A stretch of DNA of 28,438 nt from a virus. Made by a program: the position numbers and the translations under genes. The first letter of the stretch is position 1, and each line of letters begins with the position of its first letter. Under the pieces are notes generated by a model, which saw only the letters and a program-made list of their open reading frames with translations, made no database searches and had not been told where the DNA came from. The stretch covers positions 1-28,438 of the IMG/VR virus record IMGVR_UViG_3300046542_000245, one strand, 5' to 3'. Shown one piece after another: positions 3,505-20,247 of the stretch.

Positions 3505-3530
3505 GTCCACTTTCTCCCTAGAAAGTGGAC
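3505..3530 (+). repeat. 26-bp hairpin repeat, copy 1
   Basis: Perfect inverted repeat with 11-bp arms (GTCCACTTTCT and its complement) around a CCCT loop. The same 26 bases recur at 5439 and 19066 in the same orientation. It lies between the Mor-like gene and gpW and is not followed by a T tract, so it is not a standard terminator. Confidence 0.95.
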
Positions 3531-3573
3531 GCCGCGGTTGTTAGTGTTGGGCCTCATAACGATGGGGGTTCCA

Positions 3574-3813
3574 ATGCCAGCGCCAACCGCACAAGACATG
3601 CTTGACAAGTACATCGAGGCCGAACTGGCGATCCTCGATGGCAAAAACGTCAGCTTCCAGGGCCGCACCATGGGCATGGAAGACCTCGACAAGATCCGCC
3701 TCGGGCGCCAGGAGTGGGAGCAGCGTGTCGCGCGCGGGTCGCGGGTGAGCAGTGGCCAGCCGACTTTCGGCGGCCGTACGTTCTCGGTGGCGCGCTTCGG
3801 GGGCGACTCGTGA
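3574..3813 (+). CDS. Head-tail joining protein, gpW-like
   Basis: 79 aa. The gpW family stabilises packaged heads and forms part of the connector to which tails bind. The helix-strand-helix pattern is visible: an N-terminal helix (TAQDMLDKYIEAELAILDG), a short hairpin (KNVSFQGRTMG), then a helix (MEDLDKIRLGRQEWEQRVA). Length fits lambda gpW (68 aa) with a short basic/Gly-rich C-terminal extension. I chose ATG 3574 because GGGGG sits five bases upstream; ATG 3562 is in frame but has no ribosome binding site. The stop overlaps the GTG of the portal gene, matching the lambda W-B order. It is preceded by the repeated hairpin at 3505. Confidence 0.85.
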   Translation: MPAPTAQDMLDKYIEAELAILDGKNVSFQGRTMGMEDLDKIRLGRQEWEQRVARGSRVSSGQPTFGGRTFSVARFGGDS

Positions 3814-5375
3814 GCGCCCAGCAGCAAGGGCGCCAGGCGCCAACGATCCGCCTCAACCCTGTTGATCGGCTCATCAATTTCTTCTCGCCTGTCGCCGGCC
3901 TTCGCCGCCTTGCCGCGCGGCGGATCCTCAATCAATACGAAGCAGCAAAGCCTTCACGCCTGCGCAAGGGAACGCTGGATCACCGCGCGCCCGACACCCA
4001 GGTGACGCAGGGCGCAGTCGCGCTGCGGGCGTTGGCGCGCAACCTGGAACAGAACCACGACATTGCCCGTGGCGCGCTGCGCATCCTGGTCAACAACGTG
4101 GTCGGTCCGGCCGGCATCGGCATCGAGCCGCAGCCACGCCGGCGCGACGGCACGATCCATGAGGACTACGCGAAGTCGTTGCGCGAGGCGTACCGTGACT
4201 GGCAGAAGAAGCCCGAGGTGACGCAGCAGCACCGCTGGAGTCGGGCCCAGCGCCTGGTGGCGCGCACCTGGTTCCGCGACGGCGAAGTGTTTTCGCAGCG
4301 CCTGATGGGCAATGTGCCGGCGCTTGATCACGGGACGCGGGTGCCGTATTCGCTCGAGCTGCTCGAGCCGGACATGGTGCCGATGGACTACTACGACGAG
4401 TCGCGCGGCATCCAGCAGGGCATCCAGCGCAACACCTGGGGCAAGCCGACGGCGTACTGGGTCTACAAGGCGTTCCCGATCGGCGACCGCTGGACCCGCG
4501 GCACGTACGAGATGAAGCCGATCCAGGCAGCGCAGATGCTGCACGTGAAAGCGGTCGACCGCATCGGCCAGCTGCGCGGCGTCTCGGAGTTCGCCAGCGT
4601 CGTTACGCGCCTTGAGGACATCAAGGACTATGAAGAATCCGAACGCATCGCCGCGAAGGTGGCCGCATCGCTGACGGCCTACATCAAGAAGGGCGACGGC
4701 CAGTCCTACGGCAACCCGGAGGGCGGCGATGGGACCAAGCCCGGCGCGCGCGAGATCCAGTTCTCGCCGGGCATGATCATCGACGACCTGCAGGCGGGTG
4801 AGGAAATCGGCCTTATCGACTCCAACCGGCCGAACCCGAACCTAGTCACGTTCCGGCAGGGCCAGCTGCGCGCGGTCGCCGCGGGCATCGGCACCTCGTA
4901 TTCCAGCACCTCGCGCGACTACAGCGGCACCTACTCCGCGCAGCGTCAGGAACTGGTCGAGCAGTGGGTCAACTATGCCGTGCTGACCGACGAATTCGTC
5001 GGGCAATTCGTGCAGCCGGTGTGGGAAGACTTCGTGCTGGTCGCCCACCTGTCCGGGGTGGTGAAAATGCCGCCAGATGTGGATCCGGACAAGGCCGACG
5101 ACTGCCTGTTCGTCGGCCAGTCGATGCCGTGGATTGACCCGCTCAAGGAAGCGCTGGCGTGGGAGTCGCTGGTACAGAACGGCTTTGCCAGCGAAGTCGA
5201 AGTGCAGCGCAAGCGCGGCGTTAATCCGAACGACACGATCGAGCAGATATCCACGTTCCGCACGACGGCCAAGGAGAAGGGCCTGGTGTTCGGTTCCGAC
5301 TTCGCCAACCACATGAAGGTTGGCCCGGAAGGCCAAGCCGCGAAGCAGGCAAAGCAGAACGATTCAACCGAGTAG
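3810..5375 (+). CDS. Portal protein, lambda gpB family
   Basis: 521 aa, close to lambda gpB. It forms the dodecameric ring through which DNA enters and leaves the capsid. Recognisable family segments include the N-terminal RLNPVDRLINFFSPVAGLRR, LVNNVVGPAGIGIEP (about residues 93-107), the LELLEPDMVP block (about 181-190), and the C-terminal SYSSTSRDYSGTYSAQRQE block. The start is taken as GTG 3810 because it overlaps the gpW stop (GTGA); upstream in-frame codons lie inside gpW. A strong terminator hairpin follows the stop within 20 bases, unusual inside a late operon. Confidence 0.95.
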   Translation: MSAQQQGRQAPTIRLNPVDRLINFFSPVAGLRRLAARRILNQYEAAKPSRLRKGTLDHRAPDTQVTQGAVALRALARNLEQNHDIARGALRILVNNVVGPAGIGIEPQPRRRDGTIHEDYAKSLREAYRDWQKKPEVTQQHRWSRAQRLVARTWFRDGEVFSQRLMGNVPALDHGTRVPYSLELLEPDMVPMDYYDESRGIQQGIQRNTWGKPTAYWVYKAFPIGDRWTRGTYEMKPIQAAQMLHVKAVDRIGQLRGVSEFASVVTRLEDIKDYEESERIAAKVAASLTAYIKKGDGQSYGNPEGGDGTKPGAREIQFSPGMIIDDLQAGEEIGLIDSNRPNPNLVTFRQGQLRAVAAGIGTSYSSTSRDYSGTYSAQRQELVEQWVNYAVLTDEFVGQFVQPVWEDFVLVAHLSGVVKMPPDVDPDKADDCLFVGQSMPWIDPLKEALAWESLVQNGFASEVEVQRKRGVNPNDTIEQISTFRTTAKEKGLVFGSDFANHMKVGPEGQAAKQAKQNDSTE

Positions 5376-5392
5376 TGATGGGGGGCGTGTTT

Positions 5393-5419
5393 GGGCCGTC
5401 TTCGGGCGGCCCTTTTTTT
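5393..5419 (+). terminator. Strong intrinsic terminator after portal gene
   Basis: An 8-bp GC-rich stem (GGGCCGTC paired with GGCGGCCC, one G-T pair) has a TTCG tetraloop closed by C-G and is followed immediately by seven T. This is a textbook rho-independent terminator on the + strand. It sits between the portal and capsid genes, so late transcription must pass it by antitermination or restart beyond it. Confidence 0.9.
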
Positions 5420-5438
5420 CGCACCGCGCAGAAAAATT

Positions 5439-5464
5439 GTCCACTTTCTCCCTAGAAAGTGGAC
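5439..5464 (+). repeat. 26-bp hairpin repeat, copy 2
   Basis: Identical to copies at 3505 and 19066, with 11-bp arms and a CCCT loop. It lies 20 bases after the terminator T tract and 61 bases before the protease/capsid gene start. Confidence 0.95.
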
Positions 5465-5525
5465 GACGAGAAATCGAAACTGTGCGAACTGAAACGACAA
5501 CGTCTCCAAAAAAAAGGAACGCACG

Positions 5526-7640
5526 ATGCCAACAGCAAACCAGAATCCGCAGGGCCAGCAGCCCGCCAAGTGGTACACGATCCGCACCAACGCGCGCGCC
5601 ACCGCCGCGGGCGCGGACAACGGCGTGCAGGCCTCCGCCGCCGAGATCCTGATCTACGGCGACATCGGCGAAAGCTGGTACGGCGACACGATCGCGGCCA
5701 AGGACTTCGTGCGCGATGTCGCGGCGCTCGACGTCGAGCACCTGACGGTGCGCATCAACAGCTACGGCGGCTCGGTCACGGACGGCATCGCGATCCACAA
5801 CGCGCTCAAGCGCCACAGCGCCCAGGTCACGACCGTGATCGACGGCATCGCCGCCTCGATCGCGAGCCTGATCGCGATGGCCGGCGACACCGTCGAGATG
5901 GCCGAGAACGCGCAGATCATGATCCATGCGCCGTGGGGCTACCAGGTCGGCAACAGCGCCGACATGCGCGAGTACGCGGACATGCTCGACAGCTGGGCTG
6001 ACGCGATGTCGACCACCTACGCTTCCAAGACCGGGACCGACAAGGCCGAGTTTCTGGCGTTGCTCACCGATGGCAAGGATCACTGGTACACCGCCGAGCA
6101 GGCGCTGGAGGCCAAGCTGATCGATACCGTCATCCCCGGCCTGCCGGTTGCTGCCAGCGCGCAGCTGAAGGAATCCGTCAAGGCGCGCTATGCGTCGTTC
6201 GGCCAGACCGGTACGGCGCCAGCGACTCCGGCATACACCAGTTCCACAACCGCGGCAGCCGCCGCAACTCAACCACAGGAGAACACCATGCCTGGTGCAG
6301 CAACCCAACAGCCGGCGGCAGCGTCGCAACCCGCTGGCAACAACGAAGAAACCATCCGCCTGCAGGCGCTGGCCGCAGACGGCGAACGCCGCAAGGGCAT
6401 CCAGCTCGCCTTTGCCGCCTTCGCAGCCCGTGCCGGGGTGGCCGAGCTGCAGACGACCTGCTGCGATGACGTGAACTGCTCGGTCGAGCAGGCCAACACC
6501 AAGCTGCTGGCCCACCTGGGCAAGGACGCGACCCCGGTCGCCGGCAGCTACATCGTCACGCTGGAAGACTCGCGCGACAAGTTCCGCGCCGGTGCCGAGA
6601 AAGCCGTGCTGGCCCGCGCTGGCATGGAGAAGGACGACCGCGCCAACAACTACCGCGGCTTCACGATGATGGAGCTGGCACGCGAGTGCCTGGCCCACGC
6701 CGGCGTCAACACGCGCGGCATGGACAAGATGGGGATGGTGTCGGCCGCCTTCACCCATACGTCGTCGGACTTCCCGTCGCTGCTGTCGAACATCGCCGAG
6801 AAGGCCATGCTCAGGGGCTACGAAGAAGCCGACGAGACCTTCCAGAAGTGGACTTCGAAGGGCACTCTGAGCGACTTTAAGGTCGCGCGCCGTGTCGGCC
6901 TGAATACCTTCCCGTCGTTGGACCAGATCGCCGAAGGCGCCGAGTACCACTACGCCGATGTTAGTGATCGTGGCGAAAGCGTGGTGCTGGCGACCTTCGG
7001 CAAGCTGTTCTCGCTGAACCGCCAGACCATTATCAACGATGACCTGGGCGCGTTCACCAAGATCCCGCGCAGCATGGGCCGCGCCGCGATCCGCACGATC
7101 GGCGACCTCGTGTACGCAATTCTGACCACGAACCCGAAGATGTCCGATGGCGTCGCCCTGTTCCACGCCAACCACAAGAACCTCCTGGACGCCGCGAACG
7201 CCGCGACGATCAGCACCGCATCGGTCGACGCGATGCGCGTGGCGATGGGCAAGCAGAGCGACGGCAACGCGTCGGCACTGAACATCCGCCTGGCCAACCT
7301 GATCGTGCCGCTGGCACTGGAAGGCCTGGCGATCACGGTGCGCGACAGCCAGTACGCGGTCGGCGGCGCCAACAACGCGACCATCCCGAACATCGTCAAG
7401 GGCAACTTCGACGTGATCGCCGACGCGCGCCTCGACCGCGCTTCGCCGACCTCGTGGCACGGTGTGGCCGATTCGGGCAAGTACGACACCGTGGAAGTGC
7501 AGTACCTGGACGGCATTGAGACCCCGACGCTGGAGCAGCAGAACGGCTGGAACGTCGACGGCGTCGAGTTCAAGGTGCGCATCGATGCCGGCGTCAAGGC
7601 GCTGGACTACCGCACGCTGGCGAAGAACATCGGCGCCTAA
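5526..7640 (+). CDS. ClpP-like prohead protease fused to major capsid protein
   Basis: 704 aa. Residues about 36-210 form a ClpP/SppA-type protease: INSYGGSVTDGIAI (78-90) is the glycine-rich strand, Ser111 lies in GIAAS, and His134 in IMIHAPWG. The third catalytic residue is less certain. A low-complexity Ala/Thr/Gln linker spans about 225-275. The remainder is a capsid protein, with VALFHANHKNLLDAANA and a C-terminal FKVRIDAGVKALDYR segment resembling the Mu gpT type. Such fusions are known in phages; the protease matures the prohead. AAGGA precedes ATG 5526. An internal ATG at 6288 with its own ribosome binding site probably makes the capsid part separately. Confidence 0.93.
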   Translation: MPTANQNPQGQQPAKWYTIRTNARATAAGADNGVQASAAEILIYGDIGESWYGDTIAAKDFVRDVAALDVEHLTVRINSYGGSVTDGIAIHNALKRHSAQVTTVIDGIAASIASLIAMAGDTVEMAENAQIMIHAPWGYQVGNSADMREYADMLDSWADAMSTTYASKTGTDKAEFLALLTDGKDHWYTAEQALEAKLIDTVIPGLPVAASAQLKESVKARYASFGQTGTAPATPAYTSSTTAAAAATQPQENTMPGAATQQPAAASQPAGNNEETIRLQALAADGERRKGIQLAFAAFAARAGVAELQTTCCDDVNCSVEQANTKLLAHLGKDATPVAGSYIVTLEDSRDKFRAGAEKAVLARAGMEKDDRANNYRGFTMMELARECLAHAGVNTRGMDKMGMVSAAFTHTSSDFPSLLSNIAEKAMLRGYEEADETFQKWTSKGTLSDFKVARRVGLNTFPSLDQIAEGAEYHYADVSDRGESVVLATFGKLFSLNRQTIINDDLGAFTKIPRSMGRAAIRTIGDLVYAILTTNPKMSDGVALFHANHKNLLDAANAATISTASVDAMRVAMGKQSDGNASALNIRLANLIVPLALEGLAITVRDSQYAVGGANNATIPNIVKGNFDVIADARLDRASPTSWHGVADSGKYDTVEVQYLDGIETPTLEQQNGWNVDGVEFKVRIDAGVKALDYRTLAKNIGA
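6288..7640 (+). CDS. Major capsid protein from internal start, in frame within the fusion
   Basis: 450 aa, same frame as the longer protein. AGGAGA at 6277-6282 sits five bases before ATG 6288, a better ribosome binding site than that of the full gene. The start falls in the low-complexity linker after the protease domain. Separate translation would give an excess of capsid subunits over the protease, which the stoichiometry of heads demands. The arrangement parallels lambda C/Nu3, where an internal start in the protease gene yields the scaffold. The N-terminal 100 residues could act as a scaffold before cleavage. That both products exist is inference. Confidence 0.72.
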   Translation: MPGAATQQPAAASQPAGNNEETIRLQALAADGERRKGIQLAFAAFAARAGVAELQTTCCDDVNCSVEQANTKLLAHLGKDATPVAGSYIVTLEDSRDKFRAGAEKAVLARAGMEKDDRANNYRGFTMMELARECLAHAGVNTRGMDKMGMVSAAFTHTSSDFPSLLSNIAEKAMLRGYEEADETFQKWTSKGTLSDFKVARRVGLNTFPSLDQIAEGAEYHYADVSDRGESVVLATFGKLFSLNRQTIINDDLGAFTKIPRSMGRAAIRTIGDLVYAILTTNPKMSDGVALFHANHKNLLDAANAATISTASVDAMRVAMGKQSDGNASALNIRLANLIVPLALEGLAITVRDSQYAVGGANNATIPNIVKGNFDVIADARLDRASPTSWHGVADSGKYDTVEVQYLDGIETPTLEQQNGWNVDGVEFKVRIDAGVKALDYRTLAKNIGA

Positions 7641-7671
7641 TCCGCGTCAGGCGGACAGGCCGATCACAAGG

Positions 7672-7691
7672 TGCGCCGCTCCGGCGGCGCA
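7672..7691 (+). other. UNCG-capped hairpin after capsid gene
   Basis: An 8-bp stem (TGCGCCGC paired with GCGGCGCA) is closed on a TCCG tetraloop and lies in the 79-base gap between capsid and decoration genes. No T tract follows. It may slow polymerase or protect the capsid mRNA 3' end. Confidence 0.6.
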
Positions 7692-7719
7692 AACGAATTT
7701 CCGATAGAAGGAGCCAAAA

Positions 7720-8049
7720 ATGGCACGCAATTATGTGGGTGAAGGTGACGTACTGAACTACGCGAACGGCAACGCTGCGGTCGCTTCCGGCGCGGTCGTC
7801 GTGTTCGGCAAGCGCGTCGGTGTGGTGCTGGCCGATATTCCGGCCAACAGCGTGGGCGCGGTCTCGGTGGACGGCGTGTGGACGCTGCCGAAACATGCTG
7901 CCGACGTGGTCGGCATGGGCGACGACCTGTACTGGGATGCCGCCGCGCACGAGCTGACCACCACGGCCGGCGCCAACGCCCGCGCCGGCTATGCTGCTGC
8001 GGCCGCGGGCGCCGGCGTCACCACCGCCGACCTGGTCATCAACCTCTGA
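7720..8049 (+). CDS. Capsid decoration/cement protein, DUF2190 family
   Basis: 109 aa. The DUF2190 family comprises small beta-rich proteins that bind the outside of the capsid lattice and stiffen it. The family pattern is visible: N-terminal ARNYVGEGDVLNYAN, the central SGAVVVFGKRVGVVLADIPANSVGAVSVDGVWTLP segment (strand, GKRVGV, VDGV-TLPK), then DDLYWDAAAHELTTT and a C-terminal AGYAAAAAGAG. AAGGAG precedes the ATG. Position directly after the capsid gene fits. The gene ends two bases before the next start. Confidence 0.88.
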   Translation: MARNYVGEGDVLNYANGNAAVASGAVVVFGKRVGVVLADIPANSVGAVSVDGVWTLPKHAADVVGMGDDLYWDAAAHELTTTAGANARAGYAAAAAGAGVTTADLVINL

Positions 8050-8051
8050 CC

Positions 8052-8357
8052 ATGTTCGACAAGCTCGAGGCCCGGACCAACCGGCTGGCGATGGAGCGGC
8101 TGGCCAACGCCACCGCTGTCATCGTCGGCGTGGCCGAGCCGGTGCCGGTGATCTTCGACGCCGAGTACCGCGCCGGCACGATCGGGGTCGGGATGGGCGC
8201 CGCTGCGCCGCAGATGGTGATCGCCAATGACCGCATGCCGGCCGATTTCGTCGGCCAGCGCATCGAGATCAACGGCGCCGCCTGGTGCGTGGCGGATGCC
8301 CAGCCCGACAGCGAGCTGCCGTCCGGCCTGAGCCTTGTCATCCTGGAGAAGGCATGA
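8052..8357 (+). CDS. Head-tail joining protein, gpFII-like
   Basis: 101 aa. Likely the connector protein that joins the finished head to the tail, as lambda FII. Visible features are a short N-terminal helix (MFDKLEARTNRLAMERLANATAVI, split as helix then strand), an IFDAEY segment, and a C-terminal GLSLVILEKA strand. Size and position between decoration protein and tail terminator fit the family. ATG 8052 is the first start after the preceding stop at 8047-8049; the longer open frame upstream overlaps the decoration gene and is not credible. The stop overlaps the next gene (ATGA at 8354). Confidence 0.75.
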   Translation: MFDKLEARTNRLAMERLANATAVIVGVAEPVPVIFDAEYRAGTIGVGMGAAAPQMVIANDRMPADFVGQRIEINGAAWCVADAQPDSELPSGLSLVILEKA

Positions 8358-8806
8358 GCAGCCAGCACCAGGCCGCGCTCGAGGCGCTCGCGGATCTGCT
8401 CCGGGCAGTGCCGGACCTGGCTGATCCCGGCCAGGTGCACATCGCCCGGACCCGTACCCTCAGCACCTCCGTGCGGCGCTCGATCGTCGTGCGGCTCGGG
8501 CGCAGCGCGTCGCAGGAAAGCGCGGTGCTGGGCGGGCGCACCAGCTGGAGCACGCTGATCGCGGTCGAGTGCTACGGCCGGGACGATGAAGGCGCGGTGC
8601 CGGGGTCGACCGCCGATGCGATGGTCGAGAAGGTCTTCGCGACCCTCGACCAGGCACCCAGCTTGTGCGACGGCTTCGGCGATATCGAGCCGCTCGCGGG
8701 CGACACGCTGGCGTGGGACTACGACGAGCTGGACAGAACCATGGCGTGCATCACTGCACGCTTCGTGATGAAACACCAAACCACAGGAAGGACCCTGACC
8801 TTATGA
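8354..8806 (+). CDS. Probable tail terminator / minor tail protein (gpU position)
   Basis: 150 aa. It sits in the order where lambda-like phages encode the tail terminator that stops tube growth and joins it to the head. The protein has an N-terminal helix (HQAALEALADLLRAVPDL), strands around SIVVRLGRSASQ and LIAVECYGRDDEG, a central helix (TADAMVEKVFATLDQAP) and a C-terminal strand pair (CITARFVMKHQT-GRTLTL). This alpha/beta pattern fits gpU-like proteins, though I do not recognise a close family by sequence. Start and stop both form ATGA overlaps with neighbours, so translation is coupled. Confidence 0.62.
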   Translation: MSSQHQAALEALADLLRAVPDLADPGQVHIARTRTLSTSVRRSIVVRLGRSASQESAVLGGRTSWSTLIAVECYGRDDEGAVPGSTADAMVEKVFATLDQAPSLCDGFGDIEPLAGDTLAWDYDELDRTMACITARFVMKHQTTGRTLTL

Positions 8807-9060
8807 ACGTTCAAGATCCCAAGGCGGCGCTCCCGGAGCCGTCGCATGGCGGCAGTTACACGCGCGACCCTGGCAGCGGCGAGCTGGTTCTGACCGAGCG
8901 TACCGGACTCGATCCGGTCGAGCGCGAGGGCAAGCGCAGCGCGCCGCAACAGGACGCCGACGACATTCCCGGTACCGAGCTGTCGCCGGCCGCCGACGTG
9001 ACAACCACGGATCGCGGGGCCGCGCAGCTGGGCGCCGTGCATCTGATCGACGAGGAGTAA
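8803..9060 (+). CDS. Small acidic protein between tail terminator and tail tube genes
   Basis: 85 aa. No family is recognised. The sequence is rich in Pro, Asp, Glu and Gly, with little hydrophobic core, so much of it is probably disordered; a central RDPGSGELVLTERTG segment may be a short hairpin. It starts in an ATGA overlap with the preceding stop and ends five bases before the tail tube start, so it is part of the tail operon. Small genes at this position are common in Burkholderiales siphophages, but their role is unknown. It might be a small tail accessory protein. Confidence 0.7.
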   Translation: MNVQDPKAALPEPSHGGSYTRDPGSGELVLTERTGLDPVEREGKRSAPQQDADDIPGTELSPAADVTTTDRGAAQLGAVHLIDEE

Positions 9061-9064
9061 CAAG

Positions 9065-10039
9065 ATGGCACAACGCCTCATTCGCAAGACCGCCATCCTA
9101 GCGGCGCTCGAAGCCACCTATTGTGTGGACGCCACCCCGAGCGGTGCCGCCAACGCGATGTTGGTCAGCAACCTGACGATCAACCCGCTGAACGCCGAGT
9201 GGATTGCGCGCGGCATCATCCGCGACTACCTGGGTGGCTCGGAGGAACTGCCGGGCGCCTGCTACCTCGAGATGGGCTTCGATATCGAGCTGGTCGGTTC
9301 GGGCACGGCTGGCACCGCGCCGGCGTGGGGCCCGCTAATGCGCGCCATCGGCTTTGCCGAAGTGATCACTGCCGCGACCCGGGTCGACTATACGCCGATC
9401 TCGGCCGCCTTCGAGTCGGCCACGATCTACTGGTACGACGACGGCGTGCTGCACAAGGGCCTGGGCGCTCGTGGCACCGCCATGCTGGACATGAGTGTCG
9501 GCCAGAAGCCGGTGATCTCGTTCAAGTTCATCTGCGTCGACGGCGGCATCACCGCCACGCCGGTGGTGAGCACCACGCTGACCACGTTCCGCGTGCCGCA
9601 GATCGTGATCGACCAGAACTCGGGCGACCTCACGTTCGGCGCCACCCACGCCACGGCCACGGCGCCGGTGCTCACGGGCGGCACCATCTACCCGAGCCTG
9701 GGCCTGCAGGTGGATCTCGGCATCAAGGCCCAGTTCCAGAAGATGCTCGGCGAGCAGTCGGTTGCGGTGACCGAACGCGAAGTCACCGGTTCCGCCAAGC
9801 TGAAGCTGACCGCAGCGCAGGAGGTCACGTTCATGGGGAACGTCAAGAGCGCTACCAAGAGCAGCCTCGGCCTGCAGCACGGCACGGTGGTGGGCGACAA
9901 GGTGCTGGCCTTCATGCCCAACGTGCAGCTGAAGGAGCCGACCAAGGAAGAGCTGAACGGCGAGCGCCTGTGCGGTTACAAGCTGCGCATGCTGCCGCTG
10001 GCCGGCAACGACGAGTTCCGCCTCGTCACCAGCTTCTAA
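9065..10039 (+). CDS. Major tail tube protein
   Basis: 324 aa. Builds the non-contractile tail tube by stacking hexameric rings around the tape measure protein. The family look is clear: N-terminal RKTAILAALEATYCVDATPSG, repeated beta strands through the middle, a VDLGIKAQFQKMLGEQSVAVTERE segment and a C-terminal FMPNVQLKEP block followed by a terminal strand. GAGGAG at 9052-9057 precedes the ATG. The gene is directly followed by a UNCG-capped hairpin, and then by the tail assembly chaperone genes, as expected of a tube gene. Exact subfamily not determined. Confidence 0.87.
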   Translation: MAQRLIRKTAILAALEATYCVDATPSGAANAMLVSNLTINPLNAEWIARGIIRDYLGGSEELPGACYLEMGFDIELVGSGTAGTAPAWGPLMRAIGFAEVITAATRVDYTPISAAFESATIYWYDDGVLHKGLGARGTAMLDMSVGQKPVISFKFICVDGGITATPVVSTTLTTFRVPQIVIDQNSGDLTFGATHATATAPVLTGGTIYPSLGLQVDLGIKAQFQKMLGEQSVAVTEREVTGSAKLKLTAAQEVTFMGNVKSATKSSLGLQHGTVVGDKVLAFMPNVQLKEPTKEELNGERLCGYKLRMLPLAGNDEFRLVTSF

Positions 10040-10043
10040 CCCC

Positions 10044-10063
10044 GGCGGGGCTCCGGCCCCGCC
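10044..10063 (+). other. UNCG-capped hairpin after tail tube gene
   Basis: A perfect 8-bp stem (GGCGGGGC paired with GCCCCGCC) closes on a TCCG tetraloop, five bases after the tail tube stop. No T tract follows, so it may be a partial terminator or an mRNA-stabilising structure. Confidence 0.65.
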
Positions 10064-10094
10064 ACCCTCTCACTCTCAATAACAAGGAACAAAC

Positions 10095-10445
10095 ATGAGC
10101 AAGAAATACGTGGTGGTGGTCAGCGACATGGTGCAGGTGCCGATCGAAGGCAAGCTCAATGATGAAAACGGCACCGCGAAGCCGTTCAAGTTCTCGCTGA
10201 CCTGCCGCCGCCGCAGCGCCACCGAGATCCGGGAGGCGCTGGACGCGGCGACCTTCAGCGCACAGGACTTCATGAAGGGCGTCACCACCGGCTGGAAGGG
10301 ACAGCGCCTGGTGATGGAAGAAGACGGCCAGACCCCCGCCGAGTTCTGCGAAGAGTCGTTCGACGCGCTACTCGACGTTTCCGGCATGGCCATGTTTTGC
10401 TTTAACGCGTTCGGCAAGGCTGCGGGCGTCACTGCAAAAAACTAG
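10095..10445 (+). CDS. Tail assembly chaperone, gpG-like
   Basis: 116 aa. Corresponds to lambda gpG, a non-virion chaperone that keeps the tape measure protein soluble and recruits tube subunits. The N-terminus has strands (KKYVVVVSDMVQVPIEG, FKFSLTCRRR) followed by helices (SATEIREALDAATFSAQDFM and a C-terminal EESFDALLDVSGMAMFCFNAFGKAAG). AAGGAA precedes ATG 10095. The zero-frame product ends at a TAG directly after the slippery A AAA AAC heptamer at 10436-10442, from which ribosomes can shift to the -1 frame and extend the protein to 10801. Confidence 0.87.
   Translation: MSKKYVVVVSDMVQVPIEGKLNDENGTAKPFKFSLTCRRRSATEIREALDAATFSAQDFMKGVTTGWKGQRLVMEEDGQTPAEFCEESFDALLDVSGMAMFCFNAFGKAAGVTAKN
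10436..10442 (+). promoter_or_regulatory. -1 ribosomal frameshift site (A AAA AAC)
   Basis: The zero-frame codons GCA AAA AAC TAG contain the X-XXY-YYZ heptamer A AAA AAC immediately before the stop. The -1 frame is open from CTA at 10442 to TGA at 10799-10801. This is the position where lambda-like phages make gpG-T. Confidence 0.88.
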
Positions 10446-10801: not shown

Positions 10802-13800
10802 GCGGATCCAAGGTAATCATCACAGCCGACGAGGCGCAGGCGGTCCGGGCGTTTGACCGCTTCCGCGCCGAGGCCACCGGGTCGCTGGGCAAGGTGGCCG
10901 ACGCCGGCGGCAAGCTGAAAGGGCTGCTCGCGACGGTCGGCGTCGGGCTGTCGGTGGCGGCGCTGACCGGTGTCGTCAACAGCTCGATCGAGGCCGCCGC
11001 CGGCATGCATGACCTGTCGATCCAGACCGGTGCCTCGGTAGCGTCGCTGATGGCGTTCAAGTCGGTGGCCTCGACCTCGGAAACCACGCTCGACGGCATC
11101 GGCGCGGCGATGAACAAGATGGCCAAGGGCATGTCGGTGGCCAACGAGGAAAGTGCCGGGGTGGGCGCGGCGGTGCGCGCGCTCGGTCTGGATTTCGCCG
11201 CCCTGAAGAACGAGAAACCGGACCAGCAGATGCTGGACGTGGCGGACGCACTGGACAAGTTCCAGGATGGCGCCGGCAAGTCGGCCGTCGCCATGACGCT
11301 GTTCGGCAAGGAAGGCGCGAAGATGTTGCCGTTCCTGGCCGACCTGGCCGACGAATCGGAGGCGGTGCGCGCCAAGCTTACCGACCAGCAGGTGCAGATG
11401 AAGGCCGCCCAGGCCGCGATGGCCGACGATTTCAGCGACAACCTCACCAAAATCAAGAAATCCGGGGAGAGCTGGAAGAAGGACGTCTCGATGGGCATGC
11501 TGCCGGCGCTCTATGAGCTGAGCGGTGCGTTCTACGAGGTGACGAACCAGGCGGGCGGCTTCAAGGACCACGTCACCCAACTGGCCCAAGATGGCACCTT
11601 CGCCAACTGGACCCGGGCTGCCATCACCGGGGTGACCTACCTGGCCGATGCGGCCGAAGGCACGTACCGGGTCGTCAAGGCGATCGGGATCACGCTCGCC
11701 GCCATGTGGGCCGGCACCATCGAGGGGGTCGGCGGCGTCGCCCACGCCATGTCGCAGTTCGTGCACGGCGATTTCGCGGCCGCCTGGACCACGATCAAGG
11801 CCACCGGGAGCGGTGCGGCGGCCATCGGCAAGGACCTGATGGCCGACCTGACGGCGACGTTCAGCGAGCAGTCGTTCGGATCGAAGATCCGCGACCGGAT
11901 GGACGAGATCCGCAACATGGGTGCGGCCGCCAAGGAGGCGAAGAGCGCGCTGGACTTCGACGCCAGCGGTGACGCCAATGCGGCCGCGGCGGCGAAGAAG
12001 GAGGCCGAGGCGTTCGCCGGGTTGATCGCGACGATCCGCACCAAGCGCGACGAGGACAAGCTCGAGCTGGCGACGGCCGAGACGGCGACCGAAGGCCAGA
12101 AGCTGCGCATCAAGGTCGAGCAGGAGCTGGCGTCCGGTAAGCTCAAGCTGTCGGAAGCGCACCTGCTGGTCGTGCACGCGGCGCTGGACGAGCTGGACGC
12201 CACCGAGCAGCTGGTCAAGGCGCAGAAGGGCGAAAAGGACGTCGCCGCCTGGCTGCGCGAAAGCGCGCAGGCGCGCAGCGCATCGAGCGACACCCTGTCG
12301 GTCGAGTACGCGCTGTACGGCAAGACGGCCGACGCGCGCGAGATCGCGATGGTGGCGGTCAAGAATGAGACCGAGCTGGAGAAATTCCTGCTCGAGGAGC
12401 GCAAGAAAGGAATTGCGATTAGCGGCGCGCAGCTGGCCCAGCTGCGCGCGGAGAAGGACACCCGGACAGCGGTCGAGCAGGCCACACTGGCGCAGACCAA
12501 GGCCCTCGGCTACGCCAACTCGCTGGCGCAGGAGAACCGGCGCTTTGCGGCGGAGTCCATCGTCGACGAGAAGCAGCGCGCCCGCGCCCTGCTGGAAATC
12601 GATGCCGACACCTGGCGACAGCGCATCCAGCTCGCCGGCGACGGCACGCTGGCGCAGATCCGCCTGCAGGAGCAGTTCGACCAGTGGTACGCCAACCAGT
12701 CGATCAAGCCGCGCCAGGAGCAGGAAAGGCAGCTGTGGGACGGGATCGAGAACGCCGCGCACGACACCTTCCTGAGCATCGAGAATGGCGCCAAGTCCGC
12801 CGGTGACCGGGCCAAGGAAGCGCTCAAGAACGGCCTGTTCGAATGGCTGTGGCAACTTGCCGCGAAGCCGATTTACCTGGATGTCCGCGCAGCCTTCAGC
12901 TCGGGCGGGTCTGCCATCCTCGGCACTGGCTCCGACGCATTAGGATCCGCCGCCGGCACCTCCGGTGCGAGCAGCGGCAATCCGCTAATCTCTGCCGCAT
13001 CGGCGGCATCGGCGCTCTATAAAGCGGTCAGTGTCGGCTTCGATGGGCTTGCGGATGCGGTGGCGGGCGGCGTGCAGACGGCGATGTCGGCGGCAGGCTA
13101 TACGCCGCTCGCATCGCAGGGGTTGGCAACGGCATCGGGTCAGGCGCTGACACCGCTGGCCAGCATGGCCGGCACAGCCGCCAGCTATGGCGCCGGCCTG
13201 CTGGGTGGCCACTTCATCGGCAACGCGATCGCCGGCGACTACAGCGTCAACCATGGCCAGGCGGTCACCAACATCGCCGCCGTGGTCGGCTCGGTTCTCG
13301 GCGGCCCGATCGGCGGGGTGATCGGTGGCGCCATCGGCGGCCTGATCAACCACGCGTTCGGCATGGGCTCGACCCAGGTGCAGGCGCAGGGTTTGCGCGG
13401 CACCTTGTCCGATGCCGGGCTGAGCGCCGCCAACTACCAGAAGCTGCACCAGAACGGCGGCTGGTTCCGAAGCGACAAGGATTGGGAGAGCACCACCCCG
13501 GCCAGCGCCGAGCTGTCCGCGCAACTCATGCAGGGGCTGGCCGCGATCAAGGGCGCCTCGGCCGGGTTTGCCAGCGCGGTCGGCGCCTCGGCCGACGCGC
13601 TGCAGGGCTATGCGAAAACCTTTGACCTGGTGCTGACCGGCGACGCCGCCAAGGACCAGCAGGTGTTTGCCGACCTGCTGACCGGCATCGGCGACGAGAT
13701 CGCCAACAAGCTGGTACCGAACCTGGCCGATTTCACCACGTCCGGCGAAAGCGCGTCTGCCACGCTGCAGCGGCTCGCGGGCGACTTCCAGGCGACCAAC

Positions 13801-15360
13801 CAGATGGCGCAGCTGCTGGGCAAGTCGGCCAGCGCCGTGTTCGGTTCGCTGGGCATGGCATCGGCGGCCGCGCGCGAGCGGCTGGTCGACCTGTTCGGCG
13901 GCGCGCAGTCGCTGACCCAGCTGGCCGGCAGTTACGCGCAGAACTTCCTGAGCGATGCCGAGCGCCTCCAGCCGGTGCGCGAGGCGGTCGACGCGGCCAT
14001 GGCCAGCCTCGGGCTGGCAGCGGTCCAGACCCGGGCCCAGTTTAAGGCCATCGTCGCCGGCCTCGACCTGACCACCGAGGCCGGCGCCAAGGAATTTGCG
14101 TCGCTGATGAACCTGGCTGATGCGTTCGCCCAGGTGCACCCGGCGATCCAGTCAACGACCGACGCGCTGCAGGCGATGAAGGATGCCGCCAGCGCCGCGC
14201 TGGGCGAGGTCGACAGCAAGTTCGCCGTATTGCAGAAGGTGGTCGACCGCGAGAAGGCGGCGCTGCAGGTGCGCATCGATGCCGAGGCCGCGGCGATCGG
14301 CAAGCTGCAATCACTGTCGCAGGCGCTGCACGGGACGCTCGACGCCCTGAAGGGGCCGGACCAGGCCGCGTACGACCGCCTGGTGGCGCAGGGGCAGGTC
14401 AAGGCTGCGCTCGCGATCGCCAAGGCGGGCGGCCCGTTGCCTGCGGCCGACTCGCTCAAGGGCGCACTGTCGGCCTTGCAGCAGGACGCGAGCGGCCAGT
14501 TCGCAACCTACGCCGACTACCTGAATGACTTCTACTCGACCAAGAACGACATCGCCGAGCTGGCCGGGATCACCGACGATTCGCTGTCGGTGGAGCAGAA
14601 GACGCTCGACGCGCTGAATCAGCAGGTCAAGCAGTACGATGCCATGCTGGCCAGCGAGCAGGCACAGATCGAAGAGCTGAAGGGACAGTCGACCACGCAG
14701 CTATCGATCCTGCAGGCGCTCGCCGGGATTCAGAGCGCGATCCTGGCGGCGCAAGCCAACCCGGTCGTCGCCGCCGGGCAGGCCGTCAATCAGGCTTACC
14801 AGTCGGCGCTCGGCCGCACGCCGGATGCGGCGGGTTTGGCGTACTGGCAGCAGCAGGCCGCGAGCGGCACCCCGATCAGCGACATCATCGGCGCGATCGG
14901 CAATTCGCCCGAGGCCACCATCCGCGGCATGTACCAGACGATGCTTCACCGCGATCCGGACGCGGCCGGCATGAACTTCTGGATGAACCAGGTGGGCAAC
15001 GGCGTGTCGCTGGCCTCGATCAGCGATGAGCTGGCCGGCAGCGATGAGGCCAAGCGCCGCGCCGGGATTCCGGGCTATGCGAAAGGTGGCGAGAACGGCC
15101 CCGAGCTCGAGGCGACTGGCCCGGCGCGGATCTTCAACGCATCGCAGACCGCCGGGATCCTGTCACGACTGGCGAGCCCGGCGGACAACAATGCGGCGCT
15201 GCTGCAGGAGATCAAGAGCCTGCGCACCGAAGTGGCCCTGCTCCGGCGCGACAACAGCGCCGAGAACCTCTCGATCGCCAAGCATTCGATGAACGCCGCG
15301 AATGCCCTGGATGATGCCGTGAGCGGTGCGCGCCCGCTCTTGACCAAGGCAGGAACCTAA
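10798..15360 (+). CDS. Tail tape measure protein with C-terminal DUF4214 repeats
   Basis: 1520 aa. Sets tail length and helps DNA entry. The N-terminal region is Ala/Gly-rich and helical, followed by long charged coiled-coil stretches (about 390-670). A very hydrophobic glycine-rich stretch (about 821-858: VVGSVLGGPIGGVIGGAIGG) could insert in a membrane at infection. Near the C-terminus two DUF4214-like repeats are seen (ALGRTPDAAGLAYW at about 1337 and MLHRDPDAAGMNFW at about 1381), a module often found in surface and tape measure proteins of Burkholderiales phages. A short coiled coil ends the protein. At about 3 residues per 4.5 Å of helix the tail would be near 200 nm; that is an estimate only. 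Confidence 0.95.
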   Translation: MSGSKVIITADEAQAVRAFDRFRAEATGSLGKVADAGGKLKGLLATVGVGLSVAALTGVVNSSIEAAAGMHDLSIQTGASVASLMAFKSVASTSETTLDGIGAAMNKMAKGMSVANEESAGVGAAVRALGLDFAALKNEKPDQQMLDVADALDKFQDGAGKSAVAMTLFGKEGAKMLPFLADLADESEAVRAKLTDQQVQMKAAQAAMADDFSDNLTKIKKSGESWKKDVSMGMLPALYELSGAFYEVTNQAGGFKDHVTQLAQDGTFANWTRAAITGVTYLADAAEGTYRVVKAIGITLAAMWAGTIEGVGGVAHAMSQFVHGDFAAAWTTIKATGSGAAAIGKDLMADLTATFSEQSFGSKIRDRMDEIRNMGAAAKEAKSALDFDASGDANAAAAAKKEAEAFAGLIATIRTKRDEDKLELATAETATEGQKLRIKVEQELASGKLKLSEAHLLVVHAALDELDATEQLVKAQKGEKDVAAWLRESAQARSASSDTLSVEYALYGKTADAREIAMVAVKNETELEKFLLEERKKGIAISGAQLAQLRAEKDTRTAVEQATLAQTKALGYANSLAQENRRFAAESIVDEKQRARALLEIDADTWRQRIQLAGDGTLAQIRLQEQFDQWYANQSIKPRQEQERQLWDGIENAAHDTFLSIENGAKSAGDRAKEALKNGLFEWLWQLAAKPIYLDVRAAFSSGGSAILGTGSDALGSAAGTSGASSGNPLISAASAASALYKAVSVGFDGLADAVAGGVQTAMSAAGYTPLASQGLATASGQALTPLASMAGTAASYGAGLLGGHFIGNAIAGDYSVNHGQAVTNIAAVVGSVLGGPIGGVIGGAIGGLINHAFGMGSTQVQAQGLRGTLSDAGLSAANYQKLHQNGGWFRSDKDWESTTPASAELSAQLMQGLAAIKGASAGFASAVGASADALQGYAKTFDLVLTGDAAKDQQVFADLLTGIGDEIANKLVPNLADFTTSGESASATLQRLAGDFQATNQMAQLLGKSASAVFGSLGMASAAARERLVDLFGGAQSLTQLAGSYAQNFLSDAERLQPVREAVDAAMASLGLAAVQTRAQFKAIVAGLDLTTEAGAKEFASLMNLADAFAQVHPAIQSTTDALQAMKDAASAALGEVDSKFAVLQKVVDREKAALQVRIDAEAAAIGKLQSLSQALHGTLDALKGPDQAAYDRLVAQGQVKAALAIAKAGGPLPAADSLKGALSALQQDASGQFATYADYLNDFYSTKNDIAELAGITDDSLSVEQKTLDALNQQVKQYDAMLASEQAQIEELKGQSTTQLSILQALAGIQSAILAAQANPVVAAGQAVNQAYQSALGRTPDAAGLAYWQQQAASGTPISDIIGAIGNSPEATIRGMYQTMLHRDPDAAGMNFWMNQVGNGVSLASISDELAGSDEAKRRAGIPGYAKGGENGPELEATGPARIFNASQTAGILSRLASPADNNAALLQEIKSLRTEVALLRRDNSAENLSIAKHSMNAANALDDAVSGARPLLTKAGT

Positions 15361-15362
15361 AC

Positions 15363-16952
15363 ATGATGATCATTGATCCGGTGGCGCTGGGGGACGTCGC
15401 GTCCACCCGGCCATCCTCTAAAAATGTGTACGACAAGGCCGGCACGCTGGTGACGGTGCCGGCTAACCAGGTCGCGATCACCTACGACCCGAGCGACCTC
15501 AAAAAAGCGCCGTACCCAGTGATCGAGCCGTCCGCGACGAACGTTATCAGGTCGTCTGAAAACCTCGCCGATATGGCGGTATGGGCACAAATCGGCCTGA
15601 CCGTTACGCCAAACACAGGCATCGCGCCCGATGGGACGGTGAGCATGGACACACTAAACGGCGTAGCTGCAGTTACGTGCTACGTGCAACAGACCTTCGC
15701 GGTTACCCCGCAGGCCGATTGGGGAGTCTCGATATTTTTTAGCAAGGACACGTCCGATAGCAGTTGGATTCGCGTATTTAACAGCGGCCTGAGCGTCGAG
15801 ATGGCGGGCGTCATCTTCCAATGGACGAATGGCGTTCCGAGCATCGTTGCCACATCGGGGGCGTGGACGAAAATGCCGACTATCGAGCTGGGCACGGGCG
15901 GCGTTTACCGGCTAAAAGGGCTCGTCAACACGCAGGCTAACGCCGCACTTAACTTGCTGGTGTACCCGAGCACGAACAACAAGGCGGAAAACGCAAAGTT
16001 TTGGGGCGCGCATGCGCAGCTCGGGGAAGTCGGCACCTACATTTCGACCGCCGGTGCCGTCGTTACGCGCGCGGCCGACACCATCGCTGCCGGCGCTGGC
16101 CTGGTCTACTCCAATGTCGCGATCACCGAAACGGCCTACAGCGTCGCGGCGACCTATGCCAAGGACGCCCAGGTCTACGACCCGGCCACTTACCTGATGT
16201 ATCAGTCGCTGGCCAACGCCAACACCGGCAAGGCGCTGACTGACACGACGGCGTGGACCCCGATGAACAGGCCCGTCAACCGCTGGCAGATGTTCGACAG
16301 TTACAACAACACGCAGACTGCCAATGCCGAAGAGATCATGGTGGTCCTCAGCCCGCAGGCGATCAGTCAGGGTGTTTACCTCGGCAACGTCGATGCGACC
16401 GAGGTGCGTATCTCCGTGGTCGACCTGAGCGAAGGACTGGTCTACCGCGAGACACAGAGTCTGGTGGTGCCGGACTCGAAGTCGTCATTCTACAACTGGT
16501 GTTTCAAGCGCATCCGCCGCAAGTCCTACCTGGTGTCGGTGGGGCTGCCGCCGTACGCCAACGCCTTGATCACGATCGCGATCAGGAAGCCGGGAGGCAT
16601 CGCAAAGTGCGGCGTGTGCGCCGTCGGGCCGCTGGTAGACGTCGGCCTGTCGCAGTACGGCCTATCGCGCGAGATCCGTGACTTCTCGACCATCAACTTC
16701 AACTTCGATGGGACCAGCAACCAGCAGATCCGCAACTACGCCAAGCGCATGGATGTCGACGTGCAGATCGAGAACGACGTGATCGACAGCGTCACGGAGA
16801 ACCTGGAGGCCTACCGCCAAAGGCCGGTGGCGTGGATCGGCGCCAAGGAATTCGGGTCGGCCTGCGTGTTCGGACGCTACTCCAGCTTCAAGAACGTGAT
16901 CAAGAATGTGCCGTTTTCCCTAATGAACTTGCAAATTGAAGGAACCGTTTAA
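15363..16952 (+). CDS. Tail tip / minor tail protein with inserted lectin-like module
   Basis: 529 aa. The N-terminal 45 residues (DPVALGDVASTRPSSKNVYDKAGT is split by a loop) and the C-terminal 270 (from about YSVAATYAKDAQVYDPATYLMYQ onward) resemble distal-tail/minor tail proteins. Between about residues 50 and 240 lies a beta-rich module beginning EPSATNVIRSSENLADMAVW and ending with the AHAQLGEVGTYISTAGA segment, a layout typical of concanavalin-like carbohydrate-binding modules in phage fibres. Bases 15530-16060 are visibly richer in A/T third positions than flanking genes, suggesting module exchange. The stop overlaps the next ATG by one base. Function in host contact is inferred. Confidence 0.72.
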   Translation: MMIIDPVALGDVASTRPSSKNVYDKAGTLVTVPANQVAITYDPSDLKKAPYPVIEPSATNVIRSSENLADMAVWAQIGLTVTPNTGIAPDGTVSMDTLNGVAAVTCYVQQTFAVTPQADWGVSIFFSKDTSDSSWIRVFNSGLSVEMAGVIFQWTNGVPSIVATSGAWTKMPTIELGTGGVYRLKGLVNTQANAALNLLVYPSTNNKAENAKFWGAHAQLGEVGTYISTAGAVVTRAADTIAAGAGLVYSNVAITETAYSVAATYAKDAQVYDPATYLMYQSLANANTGKALTDTTAWTPMNRPVNRWQMFDSYNNTQTANAEEIMVVLSPQAISQGVYLGNVDATEVRISVVDLSEGLVYRETQSLVVPDSKSSFYNWCFKRIRRKSYLVSVGLPPYANALITIAIRKPGGIAKCGVCAVGPLVDVGLSQYGLSREIRDFSTINFNFDGTSNQQIRNYAKRMDVDVQIENDVIDSVTENLEAYRQRPVAWIGAKEFGSACVFGRYSSFKNVIKNVPFSLMNLQIEGTV

Positions 16953-17962
16953 TGGCGAACCAGATTACCGTCCTCCTCGATCCGACGCAGATGCCGGCGC
17001 GCACGCAGGACCAGACCGTATTCGATAACAACATGGCGAACCTCGCCGCAAACCTCCCGACGCTGGGCGCGCAAATGAACCTGGTGGCCGCCACGATGAA
17101 TGCTTACTCGGCGGGCACGGCGTACTCGATCCCGTATACGTTCGACGCGGCTACAGCCGACGCCGATCCGGGCGCGGGGAAGATTCGGTTCGATAACGCG
17201 ACGCAGAGCGGCACCACGACGCTGCGCTTGGATTTGCTTGGGTCCAATGGTATCGACTACACCACGCTGGTTGACAGCTTCGATGCATCGACGAGCATTG
17301 TAAAAGGCGCAATCCGTATCGAAAAGGCAGCCGACCCGACCAAGTTCATTGCGTTCAACGTAACCGGCCGTGCAGCGCCGGCGGGGTACAGGAACGTCGC
17401 CGTGAGTTACGTGGGCATTTCATCGGCTAATCCGTTTGCCAACGGTGATGCGCTGGTCCTTAAGTTCCAGCGCACGGGCGATAAGGGCGATCCCGGCGTC
17501 GTTACAGCGTTTCCGATGCTGCACGCACGCGATGAGAAAACGTCCGGAACCTCCGGCGGGGCCATCGTCGCGAGCACTTGGACGGCGCGCACACTCAACA
17601 CGGTTAAGAAGAACAGCATTACGGGCGCGAGCGTCGCTGGCAATCAAATTACCCTGCCGGCAGGTACTTACCGCTTCCGCGGCCGTGCTCCTGCCTTCGA
17701 CGCTAACGCGCACCAAGCCGCTCTTTATAACGTAACCGACGGCGGCTTCGCCATGGTTGGGTCGACCAGCTACTCAGGCCCGACGACGACGCCGATGAGC
17801 TCCGACAGTGACCTGGCGGGAGAGATCATCTTGGCTGCGCCTAAGGTATTTGAGCTGCGCCATTGGATCGCCAACGGTACGAACGGGACGAATATAGGCC
17901 AGCCTGCTAACACTGGCCAAGTCGAGGTCTATTCCGAAATCATCTTTGAAAAGGTCGCATGA
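16952..17962 (+). CDS. Tail fibre / receptor-binding protein with C1q-like C-terminus
   Basis: 336 aa. The N-terminal 60 residues (LLDPTQMPARTQDQTVFDNNMA and following) probably anchor to the tail tip. The middle is beta-rich. A short collagen-like GDKGDPG lies at about residue 174. The C-terminal 140 residues (from PMLHARDEKTSG; GTYRFRGRAPAFDANAH; EIILAAPKVFELRHW) resemble the jelly-roll C1q/TNF-like heads found at the tips of phage fibres. AAGGAA precedes ATG 16952. Receptor specificity cannot be read from sequence. Codon usage is also more A/T-rich than in the head genes, as expected of an exchangeable region. Confidence 0.75.
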   Translation: MANQITVLLDPTQMPARTQDQTVFDNNMANLAANLPTLGAQMNLVAATMNAYSAGTAYSIPYTFDAATADADPGAGKIRFDNATQSGTTTLRLDLLGSNGIDYTTLVDSFDASTSIVKGAIRIEKAADPTKFIAFNVTGRAAPAGYRNVAVSYVGISSANPFANGDALVLKFQRTGDKGDPGVVTAFPMLHARDEKTSGTSGGAIVASTWTARTLNTVKKNSITGASVAGNQITLPAGTYRFRGRAPAFDANAHQAALYNVTDGGFAMVGSTSYSGPTTTPMSSDSDLAGEIILAAPKVFELRHWIANGTNGTNIGQPANTGQVEVYSEIIFEKVA

Positions 17963-18597
17963 TGCTTGATATCGAAGATACTCAAGGCACTCCGGCGCTG
18001 ACGGCGGCGCCTCAACCGTTCGGTTACGTCGTGTTCGACGAGAACGGCGCGCTTGTCGAATCGTGCTTCCAGGTGCCGCCGGCCGCACACGCGGGGCGCT
18101 GGATCGGCGTCGACGAGGCCACCCGTGACAACTGGACCGCGTACCGCGCCAACGCGGCGCGCGATGGCGTGGAGCTCCTGCCCCCCATCACGCCGTTGGT
18201 TGACCTGGCGGCGCTCAAAACCGCCGCGCTCAGCCAGACGTATGCCGATGTCGATCGGGTCTACGCGGACGCGGTGGGTAACCGGGCGACCGAATACCAG
18301 GAGGCGGAACAGGCGGCGCGCGATTATGCGGCAGCAGGTTACGCCGGCGCGGCGTCCGAATACGTGTCGGACTATGCCCTGAACAATCCGACGCTGGAAG
18401 CCCAGACCAATCAGTGGGCGGCCGACGAGATCATCGCGCGGGCGGACGCGTTCCGGACCGCACAGAAGGCCATGCGCAGCAAGCGCTTCGAATGCCAGGC
18501 CGCGATGCGTGCCGCGGCTACCGCGGATGAGCTTGAGCAGGCGATCGCGCAGTGGGCGGGCTTCATTGCCGGCCTGCGCGCCGCGCTGGAGCTGTAA
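17959..18597 (+). CDS. Probable tail fibre assembly / fibre-associated protein
   Basis: 212 aa. Starts in an ATGA overlap with the fibre gene stop (a second ATG follows at 17962). The first 60 residues (FGYVVFDENGALVESCFQV, GRWIGVDEATRDNWTAYR) resemble a small beta domain; the rest is highly helical and Ala-rich (ADVDRVYADAVGNRATEYQ, TNQWAADEIIARADAFRTAQKAM). Proteins with this VD-VYADAVGNRATEY segment are common after phage fibre genes and are often annotated as tail or fibre-assembly proteins. Overlap on both sides indicates co-translation with the fibre. Function inferred from position. Confidence 0.65.
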   Translation: MMLDIEDTQGTPALTAAPQPFGYVVFDENGALVESCFQVPPAAHAGRWIGVDEATRDNWTAYRANAARDGVELLPPITPLVDLAALKTAALSQTYADVDRVYADAVGNRATEYQEAEQAARDYAAAGYAGAASEYVSDYALNNPTLEAQTNQWAADEIIARADAFRTAQKAMRSKRFECQAAMRAAATADELEQAIAQWAGFIAGLRAALEL

Positions 18598-19082
18598 TGC
18601 TGCGCGCTGCCTTCTACAAGGGCGCGCACGCGGGGCTGCCGGGTGTCTACAACCGGCTGGTGCGCTGGTGGTGCCGCAGCGCCTACTCGCACGTCGAGCT
18701 GGTGTTCGGCGACGGCCAGGCCGCTTCGGCGTCTTACATGGATGGCGGCGTGCGCTTCAAGGCGATCGACTTCGATCCGATGCTGTGGGACTTCGTGCCG
18801 CTGCCGGCCGCGCTCGAGCAACGCGCCCGCGCCTGGTTCGTAAAGCACAAGGGGCAAGCCTACGACCTGCTCGGCAACCTGCACTTCGTCATTGGCGGCG
18901 TCGGCGACGACAAGGAAAAGTGGTTCTGCTCGGAGTCGGTGGCGGCCGCACTGGGCATGGATCAGGCATGGCGTTACGACCCCGCGACGCTGTATTCAGC
19001 CCTGTTCTTCCTCGCTGGTAGTGATGCGGCCGTCGTCGATCCCGATATGGCGGCCGCGGCAAATAGTCCACTTTCTCCCTAG
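18597..19082 (+). CDS. Permuted NlpC/P60-like cysteine hydrolase
   Basis: 161 aa. YiiX/YebB-like permuted papain fold: the His comes first (His32 with Glu34 in SAYSHVELVF) and the Cys later (Cys111 in EKWFCSESVAAALG). Such enzymes cleave peptide or acyl bonds; in phages they occur beside tail genes and may act on the cell wall at entry. The ATG overlaps the previous TAA by one base. The last residues (NSPLSP) and the TAG stop are encoded by the third copy of the 26-bp hairpin, so the natural C-terminus has been set by that repeat. Substrate unknown. Confidence 0.82.
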   Translation: MLRAAFYKGAHAGLPGVYNRLVRWWCRSAYSHVELVFGDGQAASASYMDGGVRFKAIDFDPMLWDFVPLPAALEQRARAWFVKHKGQAYDLLGNLHFVIGGVGDDKEKWFCSESVAAALGMDQAWRYDPATLYSALFFLAGSDAAVVDPDMAAAANSPLSP

Positions 19083-19091
19083 AAAGTGGAC
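19066..19091 (+). repeat. 26-bp hairpin repeat, copy 3
   Basis: Identical to the copies at 3505 and 5439. It overlaps the 3' end of the NlpC/P60-like gene, supplying its stop in the hairpin loop, and separates the tail module from the lysis module. Confidence 0.95.
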
Positions 19092-19092
19092 G

Positions 19093-19110
19093 CCAGTTTT
19101 AACAAACTGG
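19093..19110 (+). other. Second hairpin beside repeat copy 3
   Basis: Perfect 7-bp stem (CCAGTTT paired with AAACTGG) with a TAAC loop, two bases after the 26-bp hairpin. No T tract follows. The remaining gap to 19176 holds no gene or clear promoter. Confidence 0.5.
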
Positions 19111-19176
19111 GGCTTCATTGTTGAACACTGGACGCGATGTCCGGCACAGCGAAAAGGCCATCCATGCTAGGTGCAA

Positions 19177-19452: not shown

Positions 19453-19454
19453 TG

Positions 19455-20244: not shown

Positions 20245-20247
20245 GTC

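Follow-up and report, generated by a model that had tools for sequence, protein, structure and literature searches.

Three identical copies of a 26-bp palindrome lie at boundaries between gene modules of the 28,438-bp virus record analysed here (the whole stretch is referred to as the window), which raises the question of whether they serve as RNA signals, recombination sequences or binding sites of a regulator. An earlier note, made from the letters alone, had described the copies as sharing one orientation and each forming a perfect 11-bp stem with a CCCT loop, and re-computation at positions 3505, 5439 and 19066 (GTCCACTTTCTCCCTAGAAAGTGGAC) confirmed this in every respect. No further copy with up to 3 mismatches was found in the window (shuffled sequences give an expectation of 0.00), and a search for the 26-mer in the apparently complete sister genome (G001) recovered the same three copies only. 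As the note had also stated, no T tract follows any of them, so the arrangement of an intrinsic terminator, i.e. a hairpin followed by a T tract, is absent. The proposed location at the terminase-connector, connector-capsid and tail-lysis junctions was correct with one amendment: site 1 does not directly follow the terminase, since a small gene between the terminase and the head-tail adaptor comes first.

The sister record (IMGVR_UViG_3300046616_000193; 41,136 bp) has a 126-bp overlap between its ends and was therefore taken as the whole genome; it is apparently a complete circular molecule of ~41.0 kb. Over their shared length the window and G001 are 99.99% identical, the sole indel comprising 72 nt and the other differences being about three substitutions. 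The virion gene block has a lambda-like layout: small and large terminase subunits, head-tail adaptor, portal, protease-capsid fusion, decoration protein, tape measure, tail fibre, endolysin and Rz. Genes encoding an integrase and CI-like and CII-like regulators are present, so the phage was considered temperate. Searches of known phages with the DNA, the hairpin or the Mor-like protein described below revealed no close relative. Features of the analysed region are summarized in Table 1.

Table 1. Predicted promoter elements and neighbouring features of the window.
Feature	Position	Strand	Remarks
Mor/C-like activator gene	3280..3501	+	between terminase and site 1; window copy lacks 24 HTH codons relative to the sister
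Site 1, 26-bp palindrome	3505..3530	+	presumed activator site; overlaps the −35
Site 1, −35-like TAGAAA	3519..3524	+	near-invariant alignment columns 15-20
Site 1, −10-like TAGTGT	3542..3547	+	predicted start 3554; columns 38-43, A and T invariant
Head-tail adaptor gene	3574..3813	+	first gene 3′ of site 1; PHROG 118, 3e-21
Intrinsic terminator	5393..5419	+	GC hairpin and T7, directly 5′ of site 2
Site 2, 26-bp palindrome	5439..5464	+	
Site 2, −35-like TAGAAA	5453..5458	+	
Site 2, −10-like GAAACT	5476..5481	+	predicted start 5488
Protease-capsid fusion gene	5526..7640	+	first gene 3′ of site 2; PHROG 133, 1.2e-219
Site 3, 26-bp palindrome	19066..19091	+	
Site 3, −35-like TAGAAA	19080..19085	+	
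Site 3, −10-like CAAACT	19103..19108	+	predicted start 19115
Lysis block	19171..20993	+	3′ of site 3; two small ORFs, endolysin (19717-20244), Rz (20385-20993)

Three further loci of these genomes deserve mention. A gene encoding a D12-class adenine DNA methyltransferase (21134-21922), also found in several phages, directly follows the lysis block, while a gene falling into a family of minor tail proteins (PHROG 1924; 1-575) precedes the terminase, distant from the tail block, and is kept at that position in nearly all relatives. Outside the window, G001 carries a Prok_Ub (prokaryotic ubiquitin) gene adjoining a gene with a weak alpha-hel2 match (L095:6348-8079); this pair, which has homologues in several related phages (L012, L014, L027, L035 and L036), may form a cassette with an accessory or defence role.

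Within the sigma70 −10 element, A-11 and T-7 are the bases conserved best, and 17 bp is the standard spacing between the two promoter hexamers. Relatives were examined as 37 loci with related terminases, together with contigs retrieved by the conserved core, and in most of them the element recurs at the corresponding junctions. A gap-free alignment of 76 distinct sites from these relatives revealed three conserved blocks: the palindrome (columns 1-26), a near-invariant TAGAAA that forms part of its right arm (columns 15-20) and a NANNNT hexamer (columns 38-43) with A at position 2 and T at position 6 in 100% of the sites. A 17-nt spacer of low conservation separates TAGAAA from this −10-like hexamer, most of the remaining columns 3′ of the palindrome contain little information, and A-rich bases lie directly 5′ of it. 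Because the invariant A and T match A-11 and T-7 and the spacer equals 17 bp, we recognize the geometry of a promoter in the alignment, and the palindrome is best read as the upstream part of a sigma70-type promoter, not as an RNA signal. In the window, the next start codons are located 20, 38 and 56 nt downstream of the predicted starts at 3554, 5488 and 19115, respectively. A standard consensus promoter scan did not call sites 1 and 2 promoters, because both of their hexamers are far from consensus, as would be expected of an activator-dependent promoter. Promoters dependent on the Mu proteins Mor and C have a recognisable −10, a poor −35 and a dyad beside or over the −35; the sites described here have NANNNT, TAGAAA and a dyad over the −35, respectively.

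Three sites each were identified in nine phages (G001, G002, G010, G013, G014, G015, G017, G018 and G020), and no other position in these genomes exceeded the reporting limit, apart from a decayed copy in G011 and the mirror images of the sites themselves. In the G011 copy (G011:C1:20706-20731), the TAGAAA block is replaced (GTCCCATTTCTCCCTGCCAATGGGAC); this copy may be a decaying site 1, located where a diverged Mor-like gene ends. A loose-pattern search of GTDB genomes matched 14 stretches, and the hits to genera other than Massilia, single ones in Bacillus, Acinetobacter and others, were rejected as chance-like. No description of these promoters was found in the open-access literature.

By profile and fold comparison, the gene 5′ of site 1 encodes a protein of the Mor/C family in the intact relatives. 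The G001 protein scored 38.9 bits against Pfam Mor (cut-off 24.9) and its counterparts in three relatives 28-37 bits; scores of 20.8 for a relative with the second class of sites (class II, see below) and 12.2 for the deleted copy in the window are under the cut-off. G001 protein similarity to the PHROG "late transcriptional activator" family was 1.5e-11, and its profile matched the PDB entries for Mu Mor (1rr7; 1e-6) and Mu C (0.002). When its predicted fold, a model of moderate quality (pTM 0.40), was compared using Foldseek, ranks 1-7 were all Mor and C chains (probability 0.94-1.00, E 0.006-0.06, TM 0.36-0.38). A gene of this family precedes site 1 in every relative containing that region, and site 1 is still present in phages with genes inserted between the two. 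Such additional DNA, ~0.9 to 2 kb or more, was observed in L198, L199, L206, L213, L217 and L222, which makes this interval an apparent hot spot for accessory genes. A 252-aa gene located 5′ of the terminase was rejected as a candidate regulator, as it is annotated as a tail protein and phages of the other site class have it as well.

Linkage of gene and site was assessed in 295 unselected genomes from the family of Massilia sp. IC2-278. A close Mor-like gene was present in 5 of them, the motif in 5 and both in 4 (hypergeometric p 8e-8). Re-scoring placed a site ~20-40 bp downstream of all five close Mor-like genes (5/5), and a class II site behind one more distant Mor-like gene. Two genomes count against the activator reading, i.e. 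G190, which has a near-match to the site and no detected Mor-like gene, and G144, in which a Mor-like gene (5e-20) is accompanied by no recognised site. So does, in the window itself, a 72-nt in-frame deletion in the activator gene (3463/3464; G001 L037:12085-12375) between the near-repeats GGGCTCG and GGGATCG, which takes out most of the HTH. This is either a real regulation-defective variant or an assembly product. As the window's own copy is deleted, our view of the mechanism rests on the intact relatives.

Some relatives carry different sites at the same junctions. Class II sites (GTCTCAAWTTGCCCTGTTTT) have GAGAC at either of two offsets or lack it and show no inner pairing; they retain the outer GTCTC and the −10, which has the form TANANT and an unchanged position in almost all of 35 sites. 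One class II phage has a third copy 5′ of apparent lysis genes, whose endolysin was recognised by eye, not by profile. In a third class (GTCTCATTTCACCCCTAAAAATGAGAC), TAGCCT or CAAACT follows TAAAAA after 17 bp. The −10 spacing is thus unchanged in both classes although their inner sequences differ. Terminases of class II phages are 69-76% identical to that of the window, compared with 69-77% in class I, while identities of the Mor-like proteins to the reference are 22-25% and 41-55%, respectively. Since the Mor-like proteins split the classes and the terminases do not, site class tracks the activator (and the adjacent head block), not the terminase; this link is not fully independent of the head genes, as the head block and the activator travel together. 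A second conserved hairpin, TCGGCATCAA(C/A)AC(A/C)TTGATGCCGA, was observed in class II phages (L020:14298, L025:14288, L030:6046, L040:14275, L045:14290 and L046:2950). It directly follows the capsid promoter's −10, and 2 nt separate its end from the ATG; because of this position the capsid mRNA would begin with a hairpin beside the start codon.

A terminator with a T tract was found 5′ of 20/29 copies of site 2, usually about 46 nt upstream, compared with 0/44 other sites and 8/1020 random positions. As a GC stem and a T tract precede it, site 2 has the order terminator then promoter.

These observations make it likely, in our judgement, that the three palindromes are activator-dependent late promoters of a temperate lambda-like phage, switched by its own Mor/C-family protein. 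The activator would be made from the gene between the terminase and site 1 and would bind the 26-bp palindrome as a symmetric oligomer, with the centre of the palindrome about 36 bp 5′ of the start, over the weak −35 (TAGAAA). Once bound, it would bring the host sigma70 RNA polymerase to the weak −10 (NANNNT, 17 bp on), so that the three copies would fire the head-connector, capsid-tail and lysis operons together, and the terminator 5′ of site 2 would limit transcripts coming from upstream. The sequences directly demonstrate the identity and positions of the copies, their conservation and geometry, the linkage with the activator gene and the family to which the intact protein belongs, whereas binding, activation, start sites, late timing and the activator being the only factor needed are all what we infer from sequence. 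More tentatively, the element could be a nested palindrome (outer GTCYC/GRGAC, inner TTTCT/AGAAA) read simultaneously by two activator dimers over the −35, replacing part of the sigma contact, in which the outer repeats would give specificity and the inner ones couple the polymerase; we consider this possible rather than probable. The deposited Mu C complexes 9l0x and 9vw8, with four C chains each, would fit a reading by two dimers.

The earlier note had raised RNA processing or antitermination as an option; a hairpin of the late transcript could act in either way, or in stabilisation, if its sequence and shape were recognised. The z-score of the perfect 11-bp stem (about −5.5) and its constant strand agree with such a signal, as do outer pairs that change symmetrically, with covariation above that of shuffles, but symmetric change does not single out RNA, because a DNA dyad bound by a dimer predicts the same. 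Across 33 site variants, pairs 1-5 persist with few exceptions, but 26 of the 99 cells for pairs 6-8 lack pairing, so that the stem is broken in many relatives; two lineage variants fold at about −6 kcal/mol, compared with −13 to −15 kcal/mol for perfect stems, and class II sites occupy the same junctions without the inner pairing. The stem is not kept by compensatory change in the manner of a conserved structured RNA, an Rfam search of the window and its relatives gave no match, and the invariant A and T, 12 nt past the stem at a fixed spacing, would be left unexplained. An RNA signal of this kind seems to us very improbable. Slightly less so, though still unlikely, is an operator over the late promoters for another regulator, which could be a repressor or else the CII-like protein of the CP76 family. 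CII of phage 186, a relative of the latter, is an activator using half-sites 20 bp apart; the outer repeats described here are spaced about 20-21 bp, and a CP76-family gene is present in 20/28 records. The CP76 protein was nevertheless down-weighted, as CII-like proteins have diverged to as little as 23% identity among phages with nearly the same sites and none was found in G002 or G003, which carry sites. Moreover, the rest of the genome, in which an activator of lysogeny would presumably have its targets, is free of sites, and the Mor-like gene shows higher conservation and is linked in all cases.

The perfect identity of the three copies and their location at module boundaries could also suggest a recently spread repeat, mobile or used in recombination, that permits module exchange, another option of the note. 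Yet the sites are homologous in situ across phages whose terminases are about 69-77% identical, and they change symmetrically there; letters are common to the copies within one phage and different between phages, as for sites following one regulator. Neither target duplications (by eye) nor copies elsewhere were found, and the fixed −10 spacing and the regular positions per genome contradict mobility, which makes this explanation extremely unlikely. A host repeat, which the note had named as a possibility, is refuted by a 5.8-Mb Massilia genome that has sites only in its prophage (three). REP/BIME-type repeats have many chromosomal copies, unlike the only 3 prophage copies of Massilia sp. IC2-278, and in the family of this strain 290/295 genomes are without any site match, with 5/295 having one. 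The interpretation given in the note is, as a whole, partly supported: its proposal of a binding site for a late regulator gains strong support from the −10 conserved at a fixed distance and from the linked Mor/C-family gene.

The Mu middle promoter Pm has, in place of the −35, a 16-bp dyad made up of two 5-bp repeats with its centre at −43.5; a Mor dimer binds this dyad, and an A-rich element lies directly 5′ of it (PMC4390567). Four late promoters of Mu, namely Plys, PI, PP and Pmom, respond to the C protein, and their −10 and −35 elements depart from consensus (PMC4461284). The sites described here resemble Pm in their homologous activator, a dyad 5′ of a recognisable −10, the lack of a consensus −35 and the A-rich bases before the dyad. 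They differ from it in number (three promoters instead of one) and geometry, having a 26-bp palindrome near −36.5 from the predicted start, over TAGAAA; this greater width and shorter distance to the start weigh against the activator reading. The three sites would thus work like a Mor/C promoter without the Pm geometry. With the Mu late promoters they share non-consensus −10 and −35 elements and dispersal over several operons, probably also under one Mor/C-family protein. However, near-identical long palindromes at all sites set them apart, and Mu is a transposing phage with its C gene in the middle operon, whereas this phage is lambda-like, carries an integrase and has the gene between the terminase and the head genes.

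Late genes of lambda are read from one promoter via Q antitermination. The present phage has the lambda layout of virion genes (terminase, portal, protease, decoration, tail) but, unlike under Q control, several activator-type promoters and an internal terminator. The hairpin or RNA reading of the palindromes is probably wrong, and the case illustrates that a flawless stem-loop read from the bare letters can instead be a dyad in the DNA. The late regulon of lambda-like phages of Massilia and relatives gains a likely trans-acting factor, promoter coordinates and predicted starts, and a Mu-type activator acting on three matched promoters has apparently taken the place of lambda's antitermination logic. 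Three site classes beside diverged activators constitute a natural data set on DNA recognition by Mor/C proteins and on the co-evolution of their sites.
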